This document shows, piece by piece, positions 17,710 to 25,644 of a stretch of 47,265 nt of DNA. The stretch spans positions 1-47,265 of the forward strand of contig CABYOM010000006.1 of assembly GCA_902520595.1 (NCBI GenBank), read 5' to 3'. The position numbers and the translations under genes were made by a program. The notes below the pieces were generated by a model. It was given only the letters and a program-made list of their open reading frames with translations, had not been told where the DNA came from and made no database searches. The first letter of the stretch is position 1; each line of letters opens with the position of its first letter. This stretch comes from an uncultured Candidatus Poseidoniales archaeon (GTDB lineage: Archaea > Thermoplasmatota > Poseidoniia > Poseidoniales > Poseidoniaceae).

Positions 17710-18393
17710 ATGCACCGAGCGTGGGTCTACATTTTGACCATCGCTCTTGGATTGTGGTTTTCTGCAACGGCATGTAATGGACTTATTCCAGACCATTATG
17801 CAGAAGTTCCAGTTAATCTTTGGTGTTGGGGGCTTTTTGCTTGGCTTTATCGCAACGGTTCGAAAAAGCAACGCATCGAGATGTTAACGGTCGTTGCTAT
17901 AGCCACTCCAATGGAACTGTTTTTCAGTGAAGTTTGGTTGATTTATGAATATCAGCGTGACCTCATGCCACTGTTTGTTCCTGCAGGTCATTATTTCCTT
18001 TTTGACTTGGGTCGAATGGCAGCTGATAAGATGAAAGAATCTTGGGCCATGCCTTTGCTGATGCCCTTTGTGCCATTGGTGATGTACGGTGCTTGGACTG
18101 GCGGAGATACTTCAGCAGTGTTCCTTTTGGTACTTGTTCTGGCATTCACAAAGTGGGGTCCACAACCGCGTTTGTATTCTGCGATGGCTTGGGCTGCACT
18201 GGCTATGGAATTATGGGGCACATACCTGGCAAACTGGACTTGGGCAAATGAGGTTCCATGGACAGGTCTGACAGCGTGGAATCCGCCTTTGCTTGTTGGT
18301 TCCTTTTACTGCTTAGGTGACCTTTTGGTAAACATGGCAGTCGTCAAGTTTGAAGGGAAGGACCGATTGGGAGTACTGCATGACCACCTCTGA
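17710..18393 (+). CDS. Polytopic membrane protein of unknown function, 227 aa
   Basis: I do not recognise this family. It has about six or seven hydrophobic helices, including YILTIALGLWFSATACNGLI and FLLVLVLAFTKWG. Conserved-looking polar patches sit between them: MELFFSEVWLIYEYQ, PAGHYFLFDLGR and ELWGTYLANWTW. Embedded His, Glu and Asp residues suggest an enzyme or a cofactor- or ion-handling protein. The ORF track begins at a TTG ten codons earlier; the ATG used here gives a cleaner signal-anchor start, but both are possible. The 3' end overlaps the ferredoxin gene by 14 bases, which argues that the two work together. Confidence 0.65.
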   Translation: MHRAWVYILTIALGLWFSATACNGLIPDHYAEVPVNLWCWGLFAWLYRNGSKKQRIEMLTVVAIATPMELFFSEVWLIYEYQRDLMPLFVPAGHYFLFDLGRMAADKMKESWAMPLLMPFVPLVMYGAWTGGDTSAVFLLVLVLAFTKWGPQPRLYSAMAWAALAMELWGTYLANWTWANEVPWTGLTAWNPPLLVGSFYCLGDLLVNMAVVKFEGKDRLGVLHDHL

Positions 18394-18712
18394 GGAGTTG
18401 CGCAAACGTCGTGAAAAGGAGGCTGTACGCATCCGTACCTCTCTCAATCGACTTCGCGGAGAACAGCGTGCATCTATCAAAGGCGGTGAATCTGCAGTCG
18501 CATTTGTTGAAGAGCGTTCATGCATCGGTTGTGACCAGTGCACCATCGTCTGTGATGATATGGCAATCGAAGTGTACAAGGTACCTATGGCCAGCCCTCT
18601 TATCAAAGTTGAATCGAACCAAAAGGCGAAGATTTTGCGTGCAGATTGCACTGGATGTCGTTTGTGTGTTCTCGCATGCCCAACCGACGCAATTTCGATG
18701 ATCGATCGTTGA
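18380..18712 (+). CDS. Ferredoxin with two 4Fe-4S motifs, 110 aa
   Basis: A basic, helical N-terminus of about 50 residues (EELRKRREKEAVRIRTSLNRLRGEQR) precedes two cluster motifs, CIGCDQCTIVCDDMAIEV and CTGCRLCVLACPTDAISMI. The first cluster lacks the usual proline after the fourth cysteine and the spacing between the motifs is long, so it is not a plain bacterial ferredoxin; it resembles electron-transfer subunits that dock to a larger enzyme. The start was moved to the internal ATG (MTTSEELRK). It overlaps the preceding membrane protein and is followed nine bases later by a small membrane protein. Confidence 0.85.
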   Translation: MTTSEELRKRREKEAVRIRTSLNRLRGEQRASIKGGESAVAFVEERSCIGCDQCTIVCDDMAIEVYKVPMASPLIKVESNQKAKILRADCTGCRLCVLACPTDAISMIDR

Positions 18713-19799: not shown

Positions 19800-22628
19800 T
19801 CAAGCCTCAACTTCTGTTAGAGGAGTTGATTCAGTAGCCGCCTTTGCCTTCTTCGCTTCAACCTGGCGAGCAAGGAACGATACGACATCCAGAATCTCAA
19901 TGTCTTCGTAGCGCTCATCGCCTTCAAATTTGAGACACTCAAAGTGCGATACACACTTTGGACATGATGTTAGCATCGTATCTGCTCCAGTCGACCGAAT
20001 CTCTTCCATGCGGGACACACGCAGAGAGCGTGCATTCTCGTTACATGACATCATACTCGAGACACCACAACACATTGCGTCTTCGCCATGGTGTTCCATT
20101 TCAACAATCTCGACACCGTCAACGCCAGCAATCAGTTGTCTTGGTTCTTCATAGATACCCATTTGGCGTCCAAGTCGACATGGGTCGTGGTAGGTGACGG
20201 TTGTTTCTTCTTCGGCTTTGAGGTTCATGTCAAAACCATTTTCGATGAGGAATTCGGTTGTATGCATCACTTTGACGCCTTCAAGTTCATAGTCACGGGC
20301 AAAAGTTCGGAAACATTCAGCGCAAGAAGATACGAGAGTATCAATACCCGATTGCTCGATTTTCTTCTGATTGTAAGCCTTGAGTTTGTCAAAGACTTCA
20401 TCCAAGCCTTGCCACTTTTGGTCGTGGCCACAGCACTTCAAGAAGTCACGTCCAAGATAGGATACGTCCATTTCCATTTCATCAAAGAGTGTGAATGCAG
20501 ATGTCGTGGCGTCACCAAGATTCATTTCACCTTCATTGACATGAGAGAAGACCATTTCCTGATCAAGGTAATCAACACAGCCAGGGTAATATCCAATACT
20601 CGAGGAGAGTGGGTAGTCTTCGATGGAGATGAAGTCACTGTTTGCAGCTTCTTCTGCTTCTGCAGCAAGAACGGCTTGCAAGACAGTGTGTGCAATTTCC
20701 GCTTGGGGTCCTCCGACAATCAACGAACGTCGAATGTCAATGTATGAATCGTAGTCTACAAGTTGCGGACAAGCGTTTGTACAGGCGGTGCATGTTAGAC
20801 ACGAATAAAGAGGAACGCCGTCATCTTCATTGTTCCAAGAGTTGTAAATGATGTTGAGTTTATCTCCACCGTTAAACAATCGAACTGGACAAGCATCGTC
20901 ACAAAGGTCACAGCCGTAACACTTGTTCATTTCAAACTCATATCCTCGTCCCATTGAGCGTAACAGAATAAACACCATTGCTCCAAAGGTCAGACAAGGT
21001 ATGAACATTGAATAGGTGAGTTTTGCATCCAATGCCTTTGGATTTGTGTGGTAGGTTGGATTCTCAATTGCGGCGAATTGACTTCCACCTAGGGCCATGT
21101 CTTCTGCGCTGGAAAGGTTCACGGTTGTTCCAGCAAGGGTTGCAGGTGCATCGGCGTTCCAAACCAAGAGTGGTTGGAATGAGGCGATACCGAAAGAGGT
21201 TTCAGTTTGAATACTGTTGTTGAGTGCAAGTGCACCGCTTACAGTGACAGAGTAAGTGTAATCATAGTCACCAACAGGTAACTCAATTGTTGCACCAGCA
21301 CAATTATCGAAAGAGGAAACAACAGAACCTTTGCTGTTGGTAACCGTCAGTGTTGAAGAAATCATACTCGCTGTTGCGATGTCGTTAATCTTGCGCTCAG
21401 AGGAACGGTATTCACAACTCAGGTCGGTAGTGAGTGTCTCAACGGTTTCATGGTGGCCATCAGGGAAGAGCGAGATGTCTTCAGTAACAGTAAATGAACC
21501 AGATGTTTCCCATCCTTCTCCACCGTTGAAGGTCGTTGTGCCTGCTGCAGCATTGATTCCATTTTCGGCATCTTGATGTCCATTGGCGTCATTGAAATCG
21601 GTGATGATATATCGAGCTGGTTGGTAAATCACCCAATCGAGCCACGCAGTTGTGGGCACTGTTTCAGATTCAGACCAACCCCGATCGTCGGTGAATTCAT
21701 TGGTAGCATGAACGTGCACATCGGTTGGTTGCGTACGCATTGCTTCTAATTCGGGATAGTAATCGTGAGTCAAACCTTTGATAGTGAGCAATCCGCCTTG
21801 GTCCCAAAATCCATCATCATACGTATCCCAAGTTGCCACAGTTCCAGCAGTTGCAATCAGAAGCGTTCCAACAAGGATTTGCTTTGCATGACTCGGTTTG
21901 AATCCTGCACCCCAGGCTTTCACCATGAGTCCGCGAGCTAAGAAATAGATACATATCCAAGCTAGAACGCCTGTCATCACCCACGGGATCGAGTTGAAGG
22001 CATCAGCCACCCAAGGTTCTCTCGTTCCGCACAACAGGTCACCATGGCTATCCAACTTACAATAATCTGAACGATTTTTCGCATAGAGTTCAAGGAAAAT
22101 ATTGATCGAAAATACGGAAATGAACCAAATGTGAGCCAGATAAACGGCACCTGCAGTTGCGAACCAAGGATCTTCAACAGGTCGCTTTTCACGGCCGCCA
22201 AGGAATGGAGGCAGTGCGAGGATACTCACGGGGATACCAGTGAGTGCTGCGCCCCACCATGCAGCGTTCCAAGGGAACACAGGTTGGCCAACGATTTCAC
22301 CAATGAAACCGGTTGGCACTGTGAATTGAGGGAGATATTCACCCCAACGCAGGTATCCGTATGAAAACAACACATACCAATCAGGGAAAACGAACCCTGC
22401 CTGAGCATATGGGTCAGCAGCACTGTGGAGTGGAGGTGGAATGAGCCAAGCGTAAAACAGCAGAACTGCAGCCATGAAGGCGAGCAGAATAGTATCTCTC
22501 AAAACTTCATGCGGCCAGAATCCATGCCCTGTACGCGTACGCTTTCGTTTACCTGCAACCTCTTGTAACTGTTCTTTCTCTTCCATGTAGGAAGTAGCAA
22601 CACGCCCGAAATTCTCGATTAGTCCCAT
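19800..22628 (-). CDS. Fusion of cytochrome b subunit IV with an HdrD/GlpC-like iron-sulfur module, 942 aa
   Basis: The start was set by GGAGG seven bases before an ATG 17 codons inside the track ORF. Residues 1-45 are basic and cytosolic. About five membrane helices follow, with PDWY at residues 82-85 in the position of the PEWY quinol-site motif of cytochrome bc/b6f subunit IV. A beta-rich segment (about residues 265-537) should face outside. A last helix leads to a cytosolic iron-sulfur part: two ferredoxin motifs (C570/573/576/580 and C610/613/616/620) and two complete CCG domains (first cysteines near 684 and 817, each with C...CCG...CxxC) as in HdrB/HdrD. It ends the Rieske/cytochrome b operon. 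I know of no described protein with this order; the reaction is unknown. Confidence 0.88.
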   Translation of the reverse strand: MGLIENFGRVATSYMEEKEQLQEVAGKRKRTRTGHGFWPHEVLRDTILLAFMAAVLLFYAWLIPPPLHSAADPYAQAGFVFPDWYVLFSYGYLRWGEYLPQFTVPTGFIGEIVGQPVFPWNAAWWGAALTGIPVSILALPPFLGGREKRPVEDPWFATAGAVYLAHIWFISVFSINIFLELYAKNRSDYCKLDSHGDLLCGTREPWVADAFNSIPWVMTGVLAWICIYFLARGLMVKAWGAGFKPSHAKQILVGTLLIATAGTVATWDTYDDGFWDQGGLLTIKGLTHDYYPELEAMRTQPTDVHVHATNEFTDDRGWSESETVPTTAWLDWVIYQPARYIITDFNDANGHQDAENGINAAAGTTTFNGGEGWETSGSFTVTEDISLFPDGHHETVETLTTDLSCEYRSSERKINDIATASMISSTLTVTNSKGSVVSSFDNCAGATIELPVGDYDYTYSVTVSGALALNNSIQTETSFGIASFQPLLVWNADAPATLAGTTVNLSSAEDMALGGSQFAAIENPTYHTNPKALDAKLTYSMFIPCLTFGAMVFILLRSMGRGYEFEMNKCYGCDLCDDACPVRLFNGGDKLNIIYNSWNNEDDGVPLYSCLTCTACTNACPQLVDYDSYIDIRRSLIVGGPQAEIAHTVLQAVLAAEAEEAANSDFISIEDYPLSSSIGYYPGCVDYLDQEMVFSHVNEGEMNLGDATTSAFTLFDEMEMDVSYLGRDFLKCCGHDQKWQGLDEVFDKLKAYNQKKIEQSGIDTLVSSCAECFRTFARDYELEGVKVMHTTEFLIENGFDMNLKAEEETTVTYHDPCRLGRQMGIYEEPRQLIAGVDGVEIVEMEHHGEDAMCCGVSSMMSCNENARSLRVSRMEEIRSTGADTMLTSCPKCVSHFECLKFEGDERYEDIEILDVVSFLARQVEAKKAKAATESTPLTEVEA

Positions 22629-22644
22629 GTTATACCCTCCAATA

Positions 22645-23514
22645 TCAATGCGGTTCAGCAATGCCTTGCACCCAGACAATAAATAAGTGGATAATGATCA
22701 GTGTCGTCACGATAACCGGAAGGATGAACACGTGAATGAAATACATTCGAGTGACTGTTCGAGCGGTAAGTGATGAGCCGCTAAAGAGGAGGGTTGCGAT
22801 ATATTTGCCAACCAAGGGGCTTGAGTTCGCAAGATTGATGCCAATAACGGCAGCCCCATAGGCAAGAGAATCCCAAGGCAAGAGATATCCTGAATACCCG
22901 AAAACGATGGTGAGTGCCATCAAAGCTACTCCAATCAACCAGTTTAATTCTCGAGGGTTGCGGTATGCGCCGGTGAAGTAGACGCGACACATGTGCAGGA
23001 ATACACTTGCGACCATGAAGTGCGTACACCAGTGATGGACAGCACGAATAATGTAGCCGAATGGGAGTTCAGTCATGATGAATTGCATACTTGCGTAAGC
23101 AGGCGAAGGGTCTCCTTCTCCTCCAGGAACGTAGTATATGCCAAGGACTGTTCCTGTAATGACTAAGATAATGAAGGAAAGGAATGAGATTCCGCCGAGG
23201 CAATACAAAGGATACCAATACCAAATGATTCGTAGTTTATACTTCTCTGCGTGAGAAAGAGGCATCTGACGGTGCATGTTGTAATATGCGCCTTTCGACA
23301 TGTTCCAGTAGTCTTGCAGACGGAAACGGGTGTCTAACCATGAGAATACCCACAGGAACAATCGTTCAGCAAAACCCATCTTTCCAGTTGATTCAACTGC
23401 TCGAAGAATTTCACGGCGTGGGGTGTCGCTGCTCTCTTGGCGCAGAGTGAGTGCAACAAGTACAACCACAAAGGCGATGAAGAACCAAAGAATCCAAAAC
23501 ATTGTTGTCATCAT
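22645..23514 (-). CDS. Cytochrome b6-like haem protein, 289 aa
   Basis: It is the N-terminal half of a split cytochrome b, holding two b haems across the membrane. In helix B, H160 (AVHHW) and H174 (FLHMCRVYF) are 14 apart. In helix D, FIH and IIIH are 15 apart, the spacing of b6f-type rather than bc1-type proteins. YASMQFIMTELPFGYIIRAVHHW also follows the b6 pattern. An extra N-terminal helix and a loop of about 80 residues (DTRFRLQDYWNMSKG) precede the core. The start is the ATG pair after GGTGATT; the Rieske stop lies seven bases upstream. It should pair with the subunit IV fusion encoded 16 bases downstream. Confidence 0.92.
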   Translation of the reverse strand: MMTTMFWILWFFIAFVVVLVALTLRQESSDTPRREILRAVESTGKMGFAERLFLWVFSWLDTRFRLQDYWNMSKGAYYNMHRQMPLSHAEKYKLRIIWYWYPLYCLGGISFLSFIILVITGTVLGIYYVPGGEGDPSPAYASMQFIMTELPFGYIIRAVHHWCTHFMVASVFLHMCRVYFTGAYRNPRELNWLIGVALMALTIVFGYSGYLLPWDSLAYGAAVIGINLANSSPLVGKYIATLLFSGSSLTARTVTRMYFIHVFILPVIVTTLIIIHLFIVWVQGIAEPH

Positions 23515-23521
23515 AATCACC

Positions 23522-24367
23522 TCAGTCGCAATACGTATACCAGTCAAGATAGTCCGTTATGCCCTCAATAACATCTCCATTCAATACAATCGGGATAATA
23601 GGGAGTCCGACTGGTGCGGGTCCACCAGCCTTTCGGATGCCAGCATAGTTAAATGTGGCCCCATTTGAACGGTTTCGGTTTGTGTTCATCTCAAGCACTG
23701 TTGGGTCAAATCGTGACGAATGGCAGATACAGAACAGTTTCGTGCCGCCATCATCACCGCCCCCGGGCGTCCATGAATCGTCAGTGAATGAGTTTGAAAC
23801 AAGTTGCCAACCAGGGATGCAGCACAAATGGGTGCAGCGGCCAAAAATCATGACCAAGTTATCCGATGGCAGCAGTCGAGGGTCGGTATCACTCAAATCT
23901 TCAAAGTGTCCGATCGTTTTACCGGTTTCATCAACACCTTCTGTGTATTGGAACCGGGCCTTACCGTTTGAAAGCGGAGTCGATGCATATTTTGAATGGT
24001 TGACGTAGGTGACAACAACAGGAACGCCGTTCCATATTCCTGCAGCACCTGAGGTTTCGGTGTTTGATTTTGCAGCTTCATCAACGAAATCTTGGCGAGT
24101 CATCACCTGTTCATGCTTTGCTCCATACCATGCGGAGTCTTCTCGTCCCTTCGCCCAGAACTTGACACCAAGTTCTCCCTCGGTGGAACCGCCTGGTGGC
24201 AGTAGAATGGCTGCAAAACCAAGCACGCCGAGTGATGCGGCTAGTACACCAGTAGCGGTATTGAACCCGTAGCGCAAGAATTGCCGACGATTGACAGTCG
24301 CTGATGTCGATGCATCATTGGAGCCTCCGGAAGAAGGAGCCGGTTTGAGGTCATATTCACGTGCCAT
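23522..24367 (-). CDS. Rieske 2Fe-2S protein with Tat signal, 281 aa
   Basis: It accepts electrons from quinol at the outer face of the cytochrome b complex. A twin-arginine signal (NRRQFLRYGF, then a hydrophobic helix ending in LPPGG) would export and anchor the folded protein. The cluster motifs are CTHLCC and CICHSSRFDP; they differ slightly from the usual CTHLGC and CPCHGS, with extra cysteines in place of Gly/Pro. A Gly/Asp-rich loop (WTPGGGDDGGTK) separates the two motifs. It lies directly before the cytochrome b6-like gene and after a small membrane protein gene. The downstream acceptor, such as a cupredoxin or a cytochrome c, is not in the window. Confidence 0.93.
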   Translation of the reverse strand: MAREYDLKPAPSSGGSNDASTSATVNRRQFLRYGFNTATGVLAASLGVLGFAAILLPPGGSTEGELGVKFWAKGREDSAWYGAKHEQVMTRQDFVDEAAKSNTETSGAAGIWNGVPVVVTYVNHSKYASTPLSNGKARFQYTEGVDETGKTIGHFEDLSDTDPRLLPSDNLVMIFGRCTHLCCIPGWQLVSNSFTDDSWTPGGGDDGGTKLFCICHSSRFDPTVLEMNTNRNRSNGATFNYAGIRKAGGPAPVGLPIIPIVLNGDVIEGITDYLDWYTYCD

Positions 24368-24373
24368 GTCCTA

Positions 24374-24820
24374 TCACCACTTGTACTCCTTCCAGTCCTT
24401 CTGGTGCTCAGGTACGAATTTATTCATTCCATGCTTAACAATGATTGTATCTGGTAGGACGAACTTGAGATAAGCCATTCCCATGAGGCAAAGTGTCACG
24501 AGCATCATTGCAAGGTGGTAAGCAAGTTGTTGCTGATCCCAGCCTTTTGCAAGGCCGTAAATCATTGAGAATACCCAGAAACACGACCAGAATAAGCCCC
24601 AAGAAAAGAATATGATGATGAGATTTGAAGCGCCGGATGGTGCCAATGAGGCGCTAACAATCGTTCCAGATTCTGCGATGTTGAATACACCATGGTCGAT
24701 GGCAGATTGCATCTGGTCTTCGGTGAGCGAAGCATCTTCCAATGCTTCTCGGGCATCTTCAACACTGACTTTGCCGCTGGCAACTTTCCGAAGGAGTGTG
24801 GTTATTGTGTCATCCATCAT
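24374..24820 (-). CDS. Membrane protein of the respiratory operon, 148 aa
   Basis: Residues 1-50 are a soluble helical segment (TTLLRKVASGKVSVEDAREALED, then a second helix). Three hydrophobic helices follow (IIIFFSWGLFWSCFWVFSMIYGL, LAYHLAMMLVTLCLMGMAYL and a shorter one), and a polar tail closes the protein. The start codon overlaps the upstream stop in an ATGA arrangement and the stop lies six bases before the Rieske gene, so it is almost certainly co-expressed. I do not recognise the family; a structural subunit of the cytochrome complex is the simplest guess. Confidence 0.7.
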   Translation of the reverse strand: MMDDTITTLLRKVASGKVSVEDAREALEDASLTEDQMQSAIDHGVFNIAESGTIVSASLAPSGASNLIIIFFSWGLFWSCFWVFSMIYGLAKGWDQQQLAYHLAMMLVTLCLMGMAYLKFVLPDTIIVKHGMNKFVPEHQKDWKEYKW

Positions 24821-25644
24821 TGATCACCTCGTCGCATGAGTTTGTAACGCAGCCGCAACTGATTTGTTCGACCAGTGTAGGATGTTGAGAAACTGTAACG
24901 CAGCATGAGTCCAGCAAAAATGATCACGAGAATCACAGCGCCGAATCCAAGAAGTCCAAGCCAATGCGCTCGCAACTTTGCACCCATGTGATGTAAATCA
25001 ACTCCATGGTGGTCAGGTTCAGGAGGACTGACATTTCCATCACCTGCAAACAGAGTTCGTGTTCCAAGCGCGCTGGTTGAGTCGCTGCCTTCTTGCATTG
25101 AGAACAGTAATTGATTCCATTTGTCTTCTTCTCCGCCGCCGTTATTCAACTGATCGCCGTTTACTGAATTACCTGTAATCCAGAAGTCAACGCTGCCTGT
25201 TCCTGCCTCGGGGGCTTGCCAAGAGAGCGTCCACATCCGATCAGCCTTACTGGCAGATGCCTCGGTGTGAGTAAGCGTTGTGACGTCCTCGTCCCAGTTT
25301 TGCAAACCGTCACCGGAAAGAGCGCCAGCACTGATGCGCATGGCAAATCCTGCGGTATAGGTTCCAGTAGCAGCGGGTCCGCCGATGATTTGAAGCGTCA
25401 TTTCATAGGTCTCGCCAGCAATCCATCCGTAGGGGACATCGTCGAGAATAATCTGGACAGAATTATCAGCCGCGCCATTGTGGCAAAGACAGCCTCCTTT
25501 AGCTACGTCGTCTATGGTTTCTCCGGCGTTGTCTTGGGCTCCTCCAACGCCGCTGTGAAGCGAGGAAACAAGGCCGGGTACAAGCAGCAAAACCGCAAGA
25601 ACGAGGATTACTCCCGAACGTGTAGAAAATGTGCTTACGCGCAT
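24817..25644 (-). CDS. Exported choice-of-anchor-V-like protein, first gene of respiratory operon, 275 aa
   Basis: It has a signal peptide (VILVLAVLLLVPGLVSSLHS), a beta-rich outer domain and a C-terminal membrane helix (LGLLGFGAVILVIIFAGLML) with a basic tail. Near residue 51 it reads KGGCLCHNG, where proteins of the choice-of-anchor V/Reeler-like group have a CxxCH haem site; here one residue is missing (CxCH). WIAGETYEMTLQI and the later GSVDFWITGNSVNGDQ also follow that group as I recall it. GGTGAT just ahead of the ATG supports the start over the TTG in the track. As the leading gene of the Rieske/cytochrome b operon it may carry or receive electrons outside the cell, but haem attachment is doubtful. 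Confidence 0.72.
   Translation of the reverse strand: MRVSTFSTRSGVILVLAVLLLVPGLVSSLHSGVGGAQDNAGETIDDVAKGGCLCHNGAADNSVQIILDDVPYGWIAGETYEMTLQIIGGPAATGTYTAGFAMRISAGALSGDGLQNWDEDVTTLTHTEASASKADRMWTLSWQAPEAGTGSVDFWITGNSVNGDQLNNGGGEEDKWNQLLFSMQEGSDSTSALGTRTLFAGDGNVSPPEPDHHGVDLHHMGAKLRAHWLGLLGFGAVILVIIFAGLMLRYSFSTSYTGRTNQLRLRYKLMRRGDQ

Follow-up and report, generated by a model that had tools for sequence, protein, structure and literature searches.

A five-gene operon lies in a 47,265-nucleotide stretch of DNA (hereafter the window; contig CABYOM010000006.1 of assembly GCA_902520595.1) from an uncultured Candidatus Poseidoniales archaeon. The complex that it encodes is a variant of the b6f-like Rieske/cytochrome b complexes, and its exported first protein, A, which carries a CxCH motif, is not cytochrome f itself. 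Our reading of the whole, held with a probability of about 0.7, is that A is the cytochrome f-equivalent of this complex and feeds an oxidase that carries a CxCH domain of its own. Taken separately, A probably carries haem c and plays the part of cytochrome f, and A and the second protein, B, are very probably subunits of the complex. Among the planktonic archaea of surface waters, Marine Group II has been described as the most abundant (PMC6461757), and its route from quinol to oxygen was previously left open.

Operon layout and core subunits

All five open reading frames (ORFs) of the operon are present on the minus strand of the window, in the order A, B, C (Rieske), D (cytochrome b) and E (subunit IV-CCG). 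An earlier note on this DNA had claimed five same-strand genes in this order with overlaps or gaps of at most 16 bases, and every one of them is where it had been placed. A and B overlap by 4 bases, and the gaps are 6 bases between B and C, 7 between C and D and 16 between D and E. The mechanical ORF of D begins at TTG 23547, but the ATG at 23514 is preferred because relatives begin there.

24817..25644, minus strand: gene A, exported choice-of-anchor V protein, proposed cytochrome f-like c-type subunit (275 residues, ATG start)
24374..24820, minus strand: gene B, membrane protein, DUF7318 relative (148 residues)
23522..24367, minus strand: gene C, Rieske [2Fe-2S] protein with an N-terminal Tat-like signal (281 residues)
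22645..23514, minus strand: gene D, b6-type cytochrome b (289 residues from the ATG)
19800..22628, minus strand: gene E, subunit IV with a C-terminal ferredoxin/CCG module (942 residues)

Judged by sequence, the core is a b6-type cytochrome b with a subunit IV and a canonical Rieske protein. The family match of C is weak (TIGR01416 of NCBIfam, E 8e-9), but its Rieske boxes CTHLCC and CICHSS are intact, with the C-x-H and C-x-x-H ligand pattern of b6f-type Rieske proteins; the ligands are invariant in 16 aligned rows, with only a T/P variation after the first cysteine. D matches PF00033 of Pfam (E 6e-42), and its best match in the PDB is cytochrome b6 (1e-45), followed by an Actinobacterial cytochrome b (3e-32) and then by other bc1-type cytochromes b at 2e-27 or weaker. 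Its haem b histidines are spaced by 14 and 15 residues, giving the four ligands of the b6 type, and Cys105, invariant in 16 of 16 aligned Poseidoniales rows, falls on the b6 cysteine of YCLGG, which we take to be the ligand of haem ci (also called cn); the assignment of Cys105 follows from this. In E, a separate subunit IV with a PEWY-type motif is joined to stretches matching PF02754 (E 3e-22, two stretches) and PF13183 in Pfam, and TfrB (1e-32), LdhH (8e-25), GlpC and DsrK in NCBIfam.

23200..23202, minus strand: Cys105 of D (YCLGG), at the place of b6 Cys35, its column matched to cytochrome b6 YCLGG
22374..22385, minus strand: PDWY motif of E (Qo site, PEWY type), P82-Y85 invariant in 21 rows
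21015..21827, minus strand: predicted extracytoplasmic insert of E, about residues 268-538, poorly conserved in the 21-row alignment and probably lying between two membrane helices
20769..20921, minus strand: two [4Fe-4S] motifs of E, C570-C620, eight cysteines invariant in 21 rows
19953..20579, minus strand: two CCG domains of E, C684-C772 and C817-C892 (PF02754), cysteines invariant in 21 rows

The insert, of about 270 residues, contains two invariant cysteines, C405 and C443.

Alternative complex III is an NrfD-type Act complex with molybdopterin-like and multihaem subunits. The earlier note had assigned the operon to that class, an assignment that does not survive: the cytochrome b is b6-like, the Rieske protein is normal, and the Pfam matches of the five proteins include no Act-type family, whether NrfD-like, molybdopterin-like or multihaem.

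Protein A and the cytochrome f fold

The product of gene A consists of a signal peptide, the CxCH motif, a beta-sandwich and a C-terminal membrane helix. It belongs to the choice-of-anchor V family (NF041895, E 3e-24, with a score of 85.8 against a curated cut-off of 42). An alignment of 34 A proteins shows no variation at G51, C52, C54 or H55, and GCLCH is found in all 80 of the named loci described below.

25561..25644, minus strand: signal peptide of A, residues 1-28, with predicted cleavage between S28 and L29
25480..25491, minus strand: CxCH of A (C52-x-C54-H55), proposed as haem attachment site on the conservation of the motif
24901..24984, minus strand: predicted C-terminal membrane helix of A, about residues 221-248 (the model has a helix over 221-272; a similar anchor lies behind the cupredoxin domain of locus L113)

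A was modelled with AlphaFold2 (m60df0a13fc8f) at a mean predicted local distance difference test (pLDDT) of 73, and the top Foldseek match of the model is the Reeler domain of F-spondin (E 2.9e-5). The match to cytochrome f rests on VIA-align, which re-aligns Foldseek's 1000 best candidates. There, cytochrome f takes ranks 1-14 (Z 10.8-10.0), Reeler domains follow at 9.8-9.3, and unrelated sandwiches begin at 8.6. The cytochrome f alignments span 143-149 residues, apart from one row of 188 with a root-mean-square deviation of 12.8. In most rows residue 32 of the model faces residue 1 of cytochrome f, and in the others residue 3; C52 lies 20 residues beyond residue 32, just as C21 of cytochrome f lies 20 beyond its residue 1. 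For the related domain fused to the oxidase (see below), the model is better (pLDDT 88.9) and Reeler domains score Z 10.6-10.2, with cytochrome f at 10.2-9.3 (ranks 4-19); cytochrome f is aligned over 133-142 residues as against 113-121 for Reeler. Its residue 1 falls on residue 24 of this model, the first residue past the predicted signal peptide. Both models thus have the overall fold of cytochrome f, with Reeler tying within 1 Z, and the modelled fold supports the cytochrome reading of A without proving it.

Cytochrome f starts with Y-P, and its N-terminal amine ligates the haem. Among 96 family members, the residue preceding the predicted mature start is always A, S, G or T, and the predicted mature N-termini are X-P in 55, X-H in 26 and X-S in 11. 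These predicted X-P/H/S starts would fit the amine-ligand layout of cytochrome f. The first cysteine lies at predicted mature residue 12 to 26, most commonly 13 (35/96), compared to 21 in cytochrome f, and the analogy is therefore loose for the oxidase-fused forms. A nearly invariant histidine of the CxCH domains (H122 of the A6 alignment) is another candidate haem ligand.

Conservation, oxidase fusion and haem machinery

The B protein of the window scores below the curated cut-off for DUF7318 (PF24002, E 5e-4, score 20.6 against 27). Its syntenic homologues in loci L110 and L104 pass (E 5e-22 and 2e-12, scores 78.7 and 47.9), and on this sequence evidence B belongs among the relatives of DUF7318. 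Among 14 control genomes, DUF7318 has a match in Haloferax volcanii only, and neither DUF7318 nor the small CxCH protein (see below) has a match in the plasmids searched.

Among the genomes of the genus and order, 57 of 59 have protein B, as do all 15 of those that are at least 90% complete. Forty loci were taken from B-positive genomes, 20 from each of two Poseidoniales families, and 39 of them read A-B-C-D-E on one strand; the other (L042) reads ABCD up to the end of its contig. A scan of named contigs gave 305 relatives of A, and the best 80 were kept for locus reading; these are labelled Poseidoniales, Poseidoniaceae, Poseidonia or Euryarchaeota/euryarchaeote. ABCDE is found in 67 of the 80; of the remaining 13, 12 stop where their contig ends and one is interrupted by a run of N. 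The two sets share genomes and are not independent. The A-B-C-D-E order is far above chance.

A profile of B matches 60 of 194 genomes of the phylum: 26/27 in family f1, 21/21 in f2, 4/5 in f3 and nine elsewhere. Gene order was read in 13 loci fetched from outside the order. In f3, of the same class, the order is kept in L102, L104 and L105 (in part in L103), with the CCG part as a separate gene. In f4 (L110) the reading is A-B-C-D-subunit IV, again without CCG on subunit IV, and no CCG part was found in subunit IV of f4, f21 or f23, where the rest of the operon is kept. A choice-of-anchor V CxCH protein is present in f21 (L107), and in f22 (L112) two A genes are followed by B and C and then by the contig end. 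Since A and B are kept in f3, f4, f21 and f22 loci, neither is confined to the order Poseidoniales. The earlier note had proposed the two as lineage-specific subunits, and synteny supports the second half of that phrase, with A and B staying beside the Rieske, cytochrome b and subunit IV genes in Poseidoniales and in deeper Thermoplasmatota. The first half has to be given up: B is a relative of DUF7318, found in H. volcanii, and A is a choice-of-anchor V protein.

The most telling loci are those of f23 (L113 and L111), in which a cupredoxin gene occupies the place of A, and choice-of-anchor V has no match in either f23 genome. Behind the cupredoxin domain of L113, a C-terminal membrane segment matches the profile of A at an independent E-value of 5e-4 (139 proteins searched), a weak but well-placed match. 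This replacement is the strongest argument that the exported domain of A takes electrons from the Rieske protein. Two loci were incompletely read; L109 gave a cupredoxin match and L114 the motif only.

Where would the electrons go next? According to the earlier note, no cytochrome c, cupredoxin or terminal oxidase gene was present and the outer acceptor was unknown. The first statement holds for the window, but elsewhere the assembly has a CuA oxidase (contig C7) and a cupredoxin (contig C15), so that the second is not true of the genome. A search with A found three further such domains in the source assembly, one of which, on C7, forms the N-terminus of COX1 and adjoins COX2. This COX1-CxCH fusion occurs in 50 of the 53 Poseidoniia genomes in the sample of the phylum (f1 27/27, one match being cut by the contig; f2 18/21; f3 5/5); in two of the exceptions no COX1 was found (G037 and G051), and in the third (G040) the match is without the N-terminal part. 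Outside the class, the f22 genome G084 carries the fusion twice, while the other listed Thermoplasmatota COX1 matches begin near query residue 190-235. GCxCH is present in all 50 fusion loci that were fetched (49 from Poseidoniia plus G084), 48 of them read by script and two read in frame. Of those 48 rows, 44 gave an upstream ORF that was read, each with a CuA motif, and the other four showed none in the stretch.

In genome G134, the only two choice-of-anchor V matches are A and the oxidase fusion. Another member of the family, a small anchored CxCH protein (L002), is a choice-of-anchor V paralogue. PF00127 cupredoxins are found in 24 of 27 genomes. The candidates for the acceptor are the oxidase CxCH domain, the small anchored CxCH protein and a plastocyanin-like protein, and the oxidase-fused domain has somewhat better than even odds of being the one.

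What would attach haem to CxCH? The CcmC/CcmF family PF01578 is present in 37 of 37 Poseidoniia genomes (one sample). In NCBIfam its long form matches CcmF/NrfE (9e-40) and its short form CcmC (3e-21), both under the curated cut-offs, and the CcmC-like gene adjoins a CcmA-like ATPase gene in the source assembly. CcmE is found in 23 of 27 genomes, including 21 of 23 Poseidoniia. The classical cytochrome c families PF00034 and PF13442 have no match in any of the 27 genomes (0/27), with matches in 8 and 7 of the 14 controls. The absence of PF00034 agrees with a reported result that PF00034/PF01322 are absent from all Thermoplasmatota genomes studied (PMC9287336). Since Ccm genes are kept and classical cytochrome c is not found, Ccm needs another substrate; the best candidate is the CxCH family, which has 2 to 8 choice-of-anchor V matches per genome in 23 Poseidoniia genomes. 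The machinery could also serve haem ci.

Several further observations stand apart from this argument. The tandem A genes of G084 lie at L112 3425-4465 and 4780-6279, and its two COX1-CxCH fusions in L178. In family f25 (L106 1423-4644 and L108 788-3613), the reading frame of a protein that has Ig-like repeats and CGNTEGCH (C-x5-CH) continues into cytochrome b, and the subunit IV-CCG fusion of these loci is without the large insert. A CxCH choice-of-anchor V domain heads a large repeat protein of the source assembly (L003 1-2067) that may not be a cytochrome, and genome G073 has a plastocyanin-like gene (L193 4808-5425) close to a CcmF-like gene. Near the operon, on the opposite strand, positions 18350-18712 of the window encode a 120-residue protein with two 4Fe-4S motifs.

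Proposed electron route, rival explanations and known systems

In the mechanism that we propose, the operon would encode a b6f-like quinol oxidase in which D and the subunit IV part of E (PDWY) together make up the Qo site where quinol is oxidised. From there one electron would pass through Rieske protein C to A, which would be an outward-facing, membrane-anchored c-type cytochrome, like cytochrome f in fold and layout but with a shortened haem motif (CxCH). The other would cross the two haems b of D, and probably haem ci, to an inner quinone site. A would then reduce the CuA oxidase, either directly via the CxCH domain on subunit I or via a plastocyanin-like cupredoxin where one is present. 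B would be a small membrane subunit, and the ferredoxin/CCG tail of E, on the cytoplasmic side, may have either a soluble donor or the inner quinone site as its partner in electron exchange. We infer the haem on CxCH, the electron route and the role of the CCG tail. A probably fills the standard cytochrome f or c1 role.

A number of results weigh against this scheme. Foldseek puts Reeler first for both models, with no cytochrome f among the 50 matches listed, and with Reeler within 1 Z of cytochrome f in VIA-align the fold alone is not decisive. In a profile-profile comparison (hhalign) of 96 CxCH domains with five cytochrome f chains, the match is not significant (probability 0.2%, E 0.31), although within it the best local alignment places CH on CH. 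No cytochrome f family appears among the Pfam and NCBIfam matches of A up to E 1, and a sequence search of A against the PDB gave chance matches only. The motif of A is one residue shorter than the CxxCH of cytochrome f, and A is not classed as cytochrome f because it has neither that motif nor membership of the sequence family. We infer haem binding by CxCH from the motif, the fold and the Ccm genes. Some choice-of-anchor V paralogues occur in large proteins and are not necessarily cytochromes. B was not found by the profile search in G121 (94% complete, of the same family) or in G212. Cys105 of D is serine in four of seven distant loci (L102, L104, L105 and L107) and cysteine in L103, L106 and L108; haem ci may have been lost in part of the class. 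Finally, PF00127 is absent from G127 and G041, two Poseidoniales genomes more than 90% complete, and in these two at least a direct CxCH-to-CxCH route must therefore be possible, unless another cupredoxin family serves.

As one alternative, A may be a Reeler-type structural or docking subunit, without a redox centre or with copper or zinc bound by CxCH, and Rieske electrons would pass directly to a cupredoxin. Its Reeler matches are nearly as good as those to cytochrome f, its sequence homology to cytochrome f was not detected, and cupredoxins are widespread in the genomes searched. We nevertheless consider such a subunit unlikely, considering that C-x-C-H is invariant in A proteins, oxidase fusions and the small anchored paralogue, that Ccm genes are retained though no classical cytochrome c was found, and that a redox domain replaces A in f23. 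The overlapping genes, and an order conserved across deep branches, likewise speak against A and B being assembly factors or maturation neighbours; this seems very unlikely even though the two are tied to the complex by gene order and predicted membrane location alone, and the fusion of the same domain to the oxidase argues for a working part of the chain.

The tail of E suggests a different alternative, in which the main task of the complex is to reduce quinone with electrons that enter from the cytoplasm by way of the ferredoxin/CCG module, like LdhH, GlcF and HdrD-type proteins, with the Rieske protein and A as a second exit (confurcation or bifurcation). The matches of E to TfrB, LdhH, GlpC and DsrK are consistent with such a role, as are the 4Fe-4S and CCG cysteines, all of them invariant. 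We regard it as decidedly doubtful, since the CCG part is separate in f3 and was not found in f4, f21 or f23 subunit IV while the operon otherwise persists, and both the arm that faces outward and the fusion to the oxidase are in keeping with a normal quinol oxidase.

Should A prove to be a CxCH cytochrome, the gap in the Marine Group II chain would close, a new haem-attachment motif would be added, and choice-of-anchor V, named so far only by its anchor, would gain a function; we know of no redox role for that family. Cytochrome f, to our knowledge alone among cytochromes of solved structure in having this beta-sandwich fold, would gain a relative outside photosynthesis. The oxidase-joined CxCH domain suggests an electron path to oxygen without a recognised cytochrome c. 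A broader proposal, for which we would give slightly less than even odds, is that every c-type step in Poseidoniia is carried by one CxCH haem family of the Reeler/cytochrome f fold, in the complex, the oxidase fusion and the small anchored forms; if true, photosynthetic cytochrome f and the archaeal family share a fold and perhaps an origin.

Among known systems, A resembles the Reeler domain of F-spondin and NCBI choice-of-anchor V in fold and profile match, but the F-spondin domain is an animal extracellular domain, unlike the archaeal A. E shares two 4Fe-4S and two CCG domains with the CCG subunits LdhH, TfrB, GlcF and HdrD, and differs from them in the fusion partner of its module, which is the subunit IV of a Rieske/cytochrome b complex. 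The operon is like the chloroplast and cyanobacterial cytochrome b6f in its split b6 and subunit IV, its Rieske protein, the 14/15 histidine spacing, the cysteine at the haem ci position and the PEWY-type motif. Both also have an anchored protein of the beta-sandwich type, with a C-terminal helix and, close to the processed N-terminus, a haem-type CH motif. The operon is unlike b6f in that A lies outside the cytochrome f sequence family and has CxCH, in DUF7318, in the CCG-fused subunit IV, in its respiratory role and in having no small petG/L/M/N genes in the operon.

For haloarchaea, a published account describes a PetABD complex with a b6-like cytochrome b and PetD, a cupredoxin carrier, and a halocyanin fused to an oxidase subunit (PMC8305020). 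The present system has in common with it the b6-like cytochrome b with PetD, a cupredoxin carrier and a carrier-type domain on an oxidase subunit, as well as DUF7318, by presence in the H. volcanii genome alone. The carrier described there is halocyanin and not a CxCH protein, and none of the 14 control genomes, which include that of H. volcanii, has a choice-of-anchor V match. Plasmid-borne haloarchaeal cytochrome b loci were rejected as instances of the same operon, being Rieske/cytochrome b/molybdopterin operons.

In literature on CxCH cytochromes, cytochrome f and Rieske proteins in archaea, the choice-of-anchor V, DUF7318 and Reeler families, haloarchaeal complexes and Marine Group II respiration, judged mostly by title, no title describes this system; CXCH has been used in one pipeline as a regular expression for haem motifs (PMC11218250). 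A precedent is the Marine Group II-specific complex III of Tully (2019), outlined in the section consulted as cytochrome b plus Rieske without a canonical bc1 (PMC6336850). Relative to that section, A, B, the CCG fusion, the oxidase fusion and the outer electron carrier are additions.

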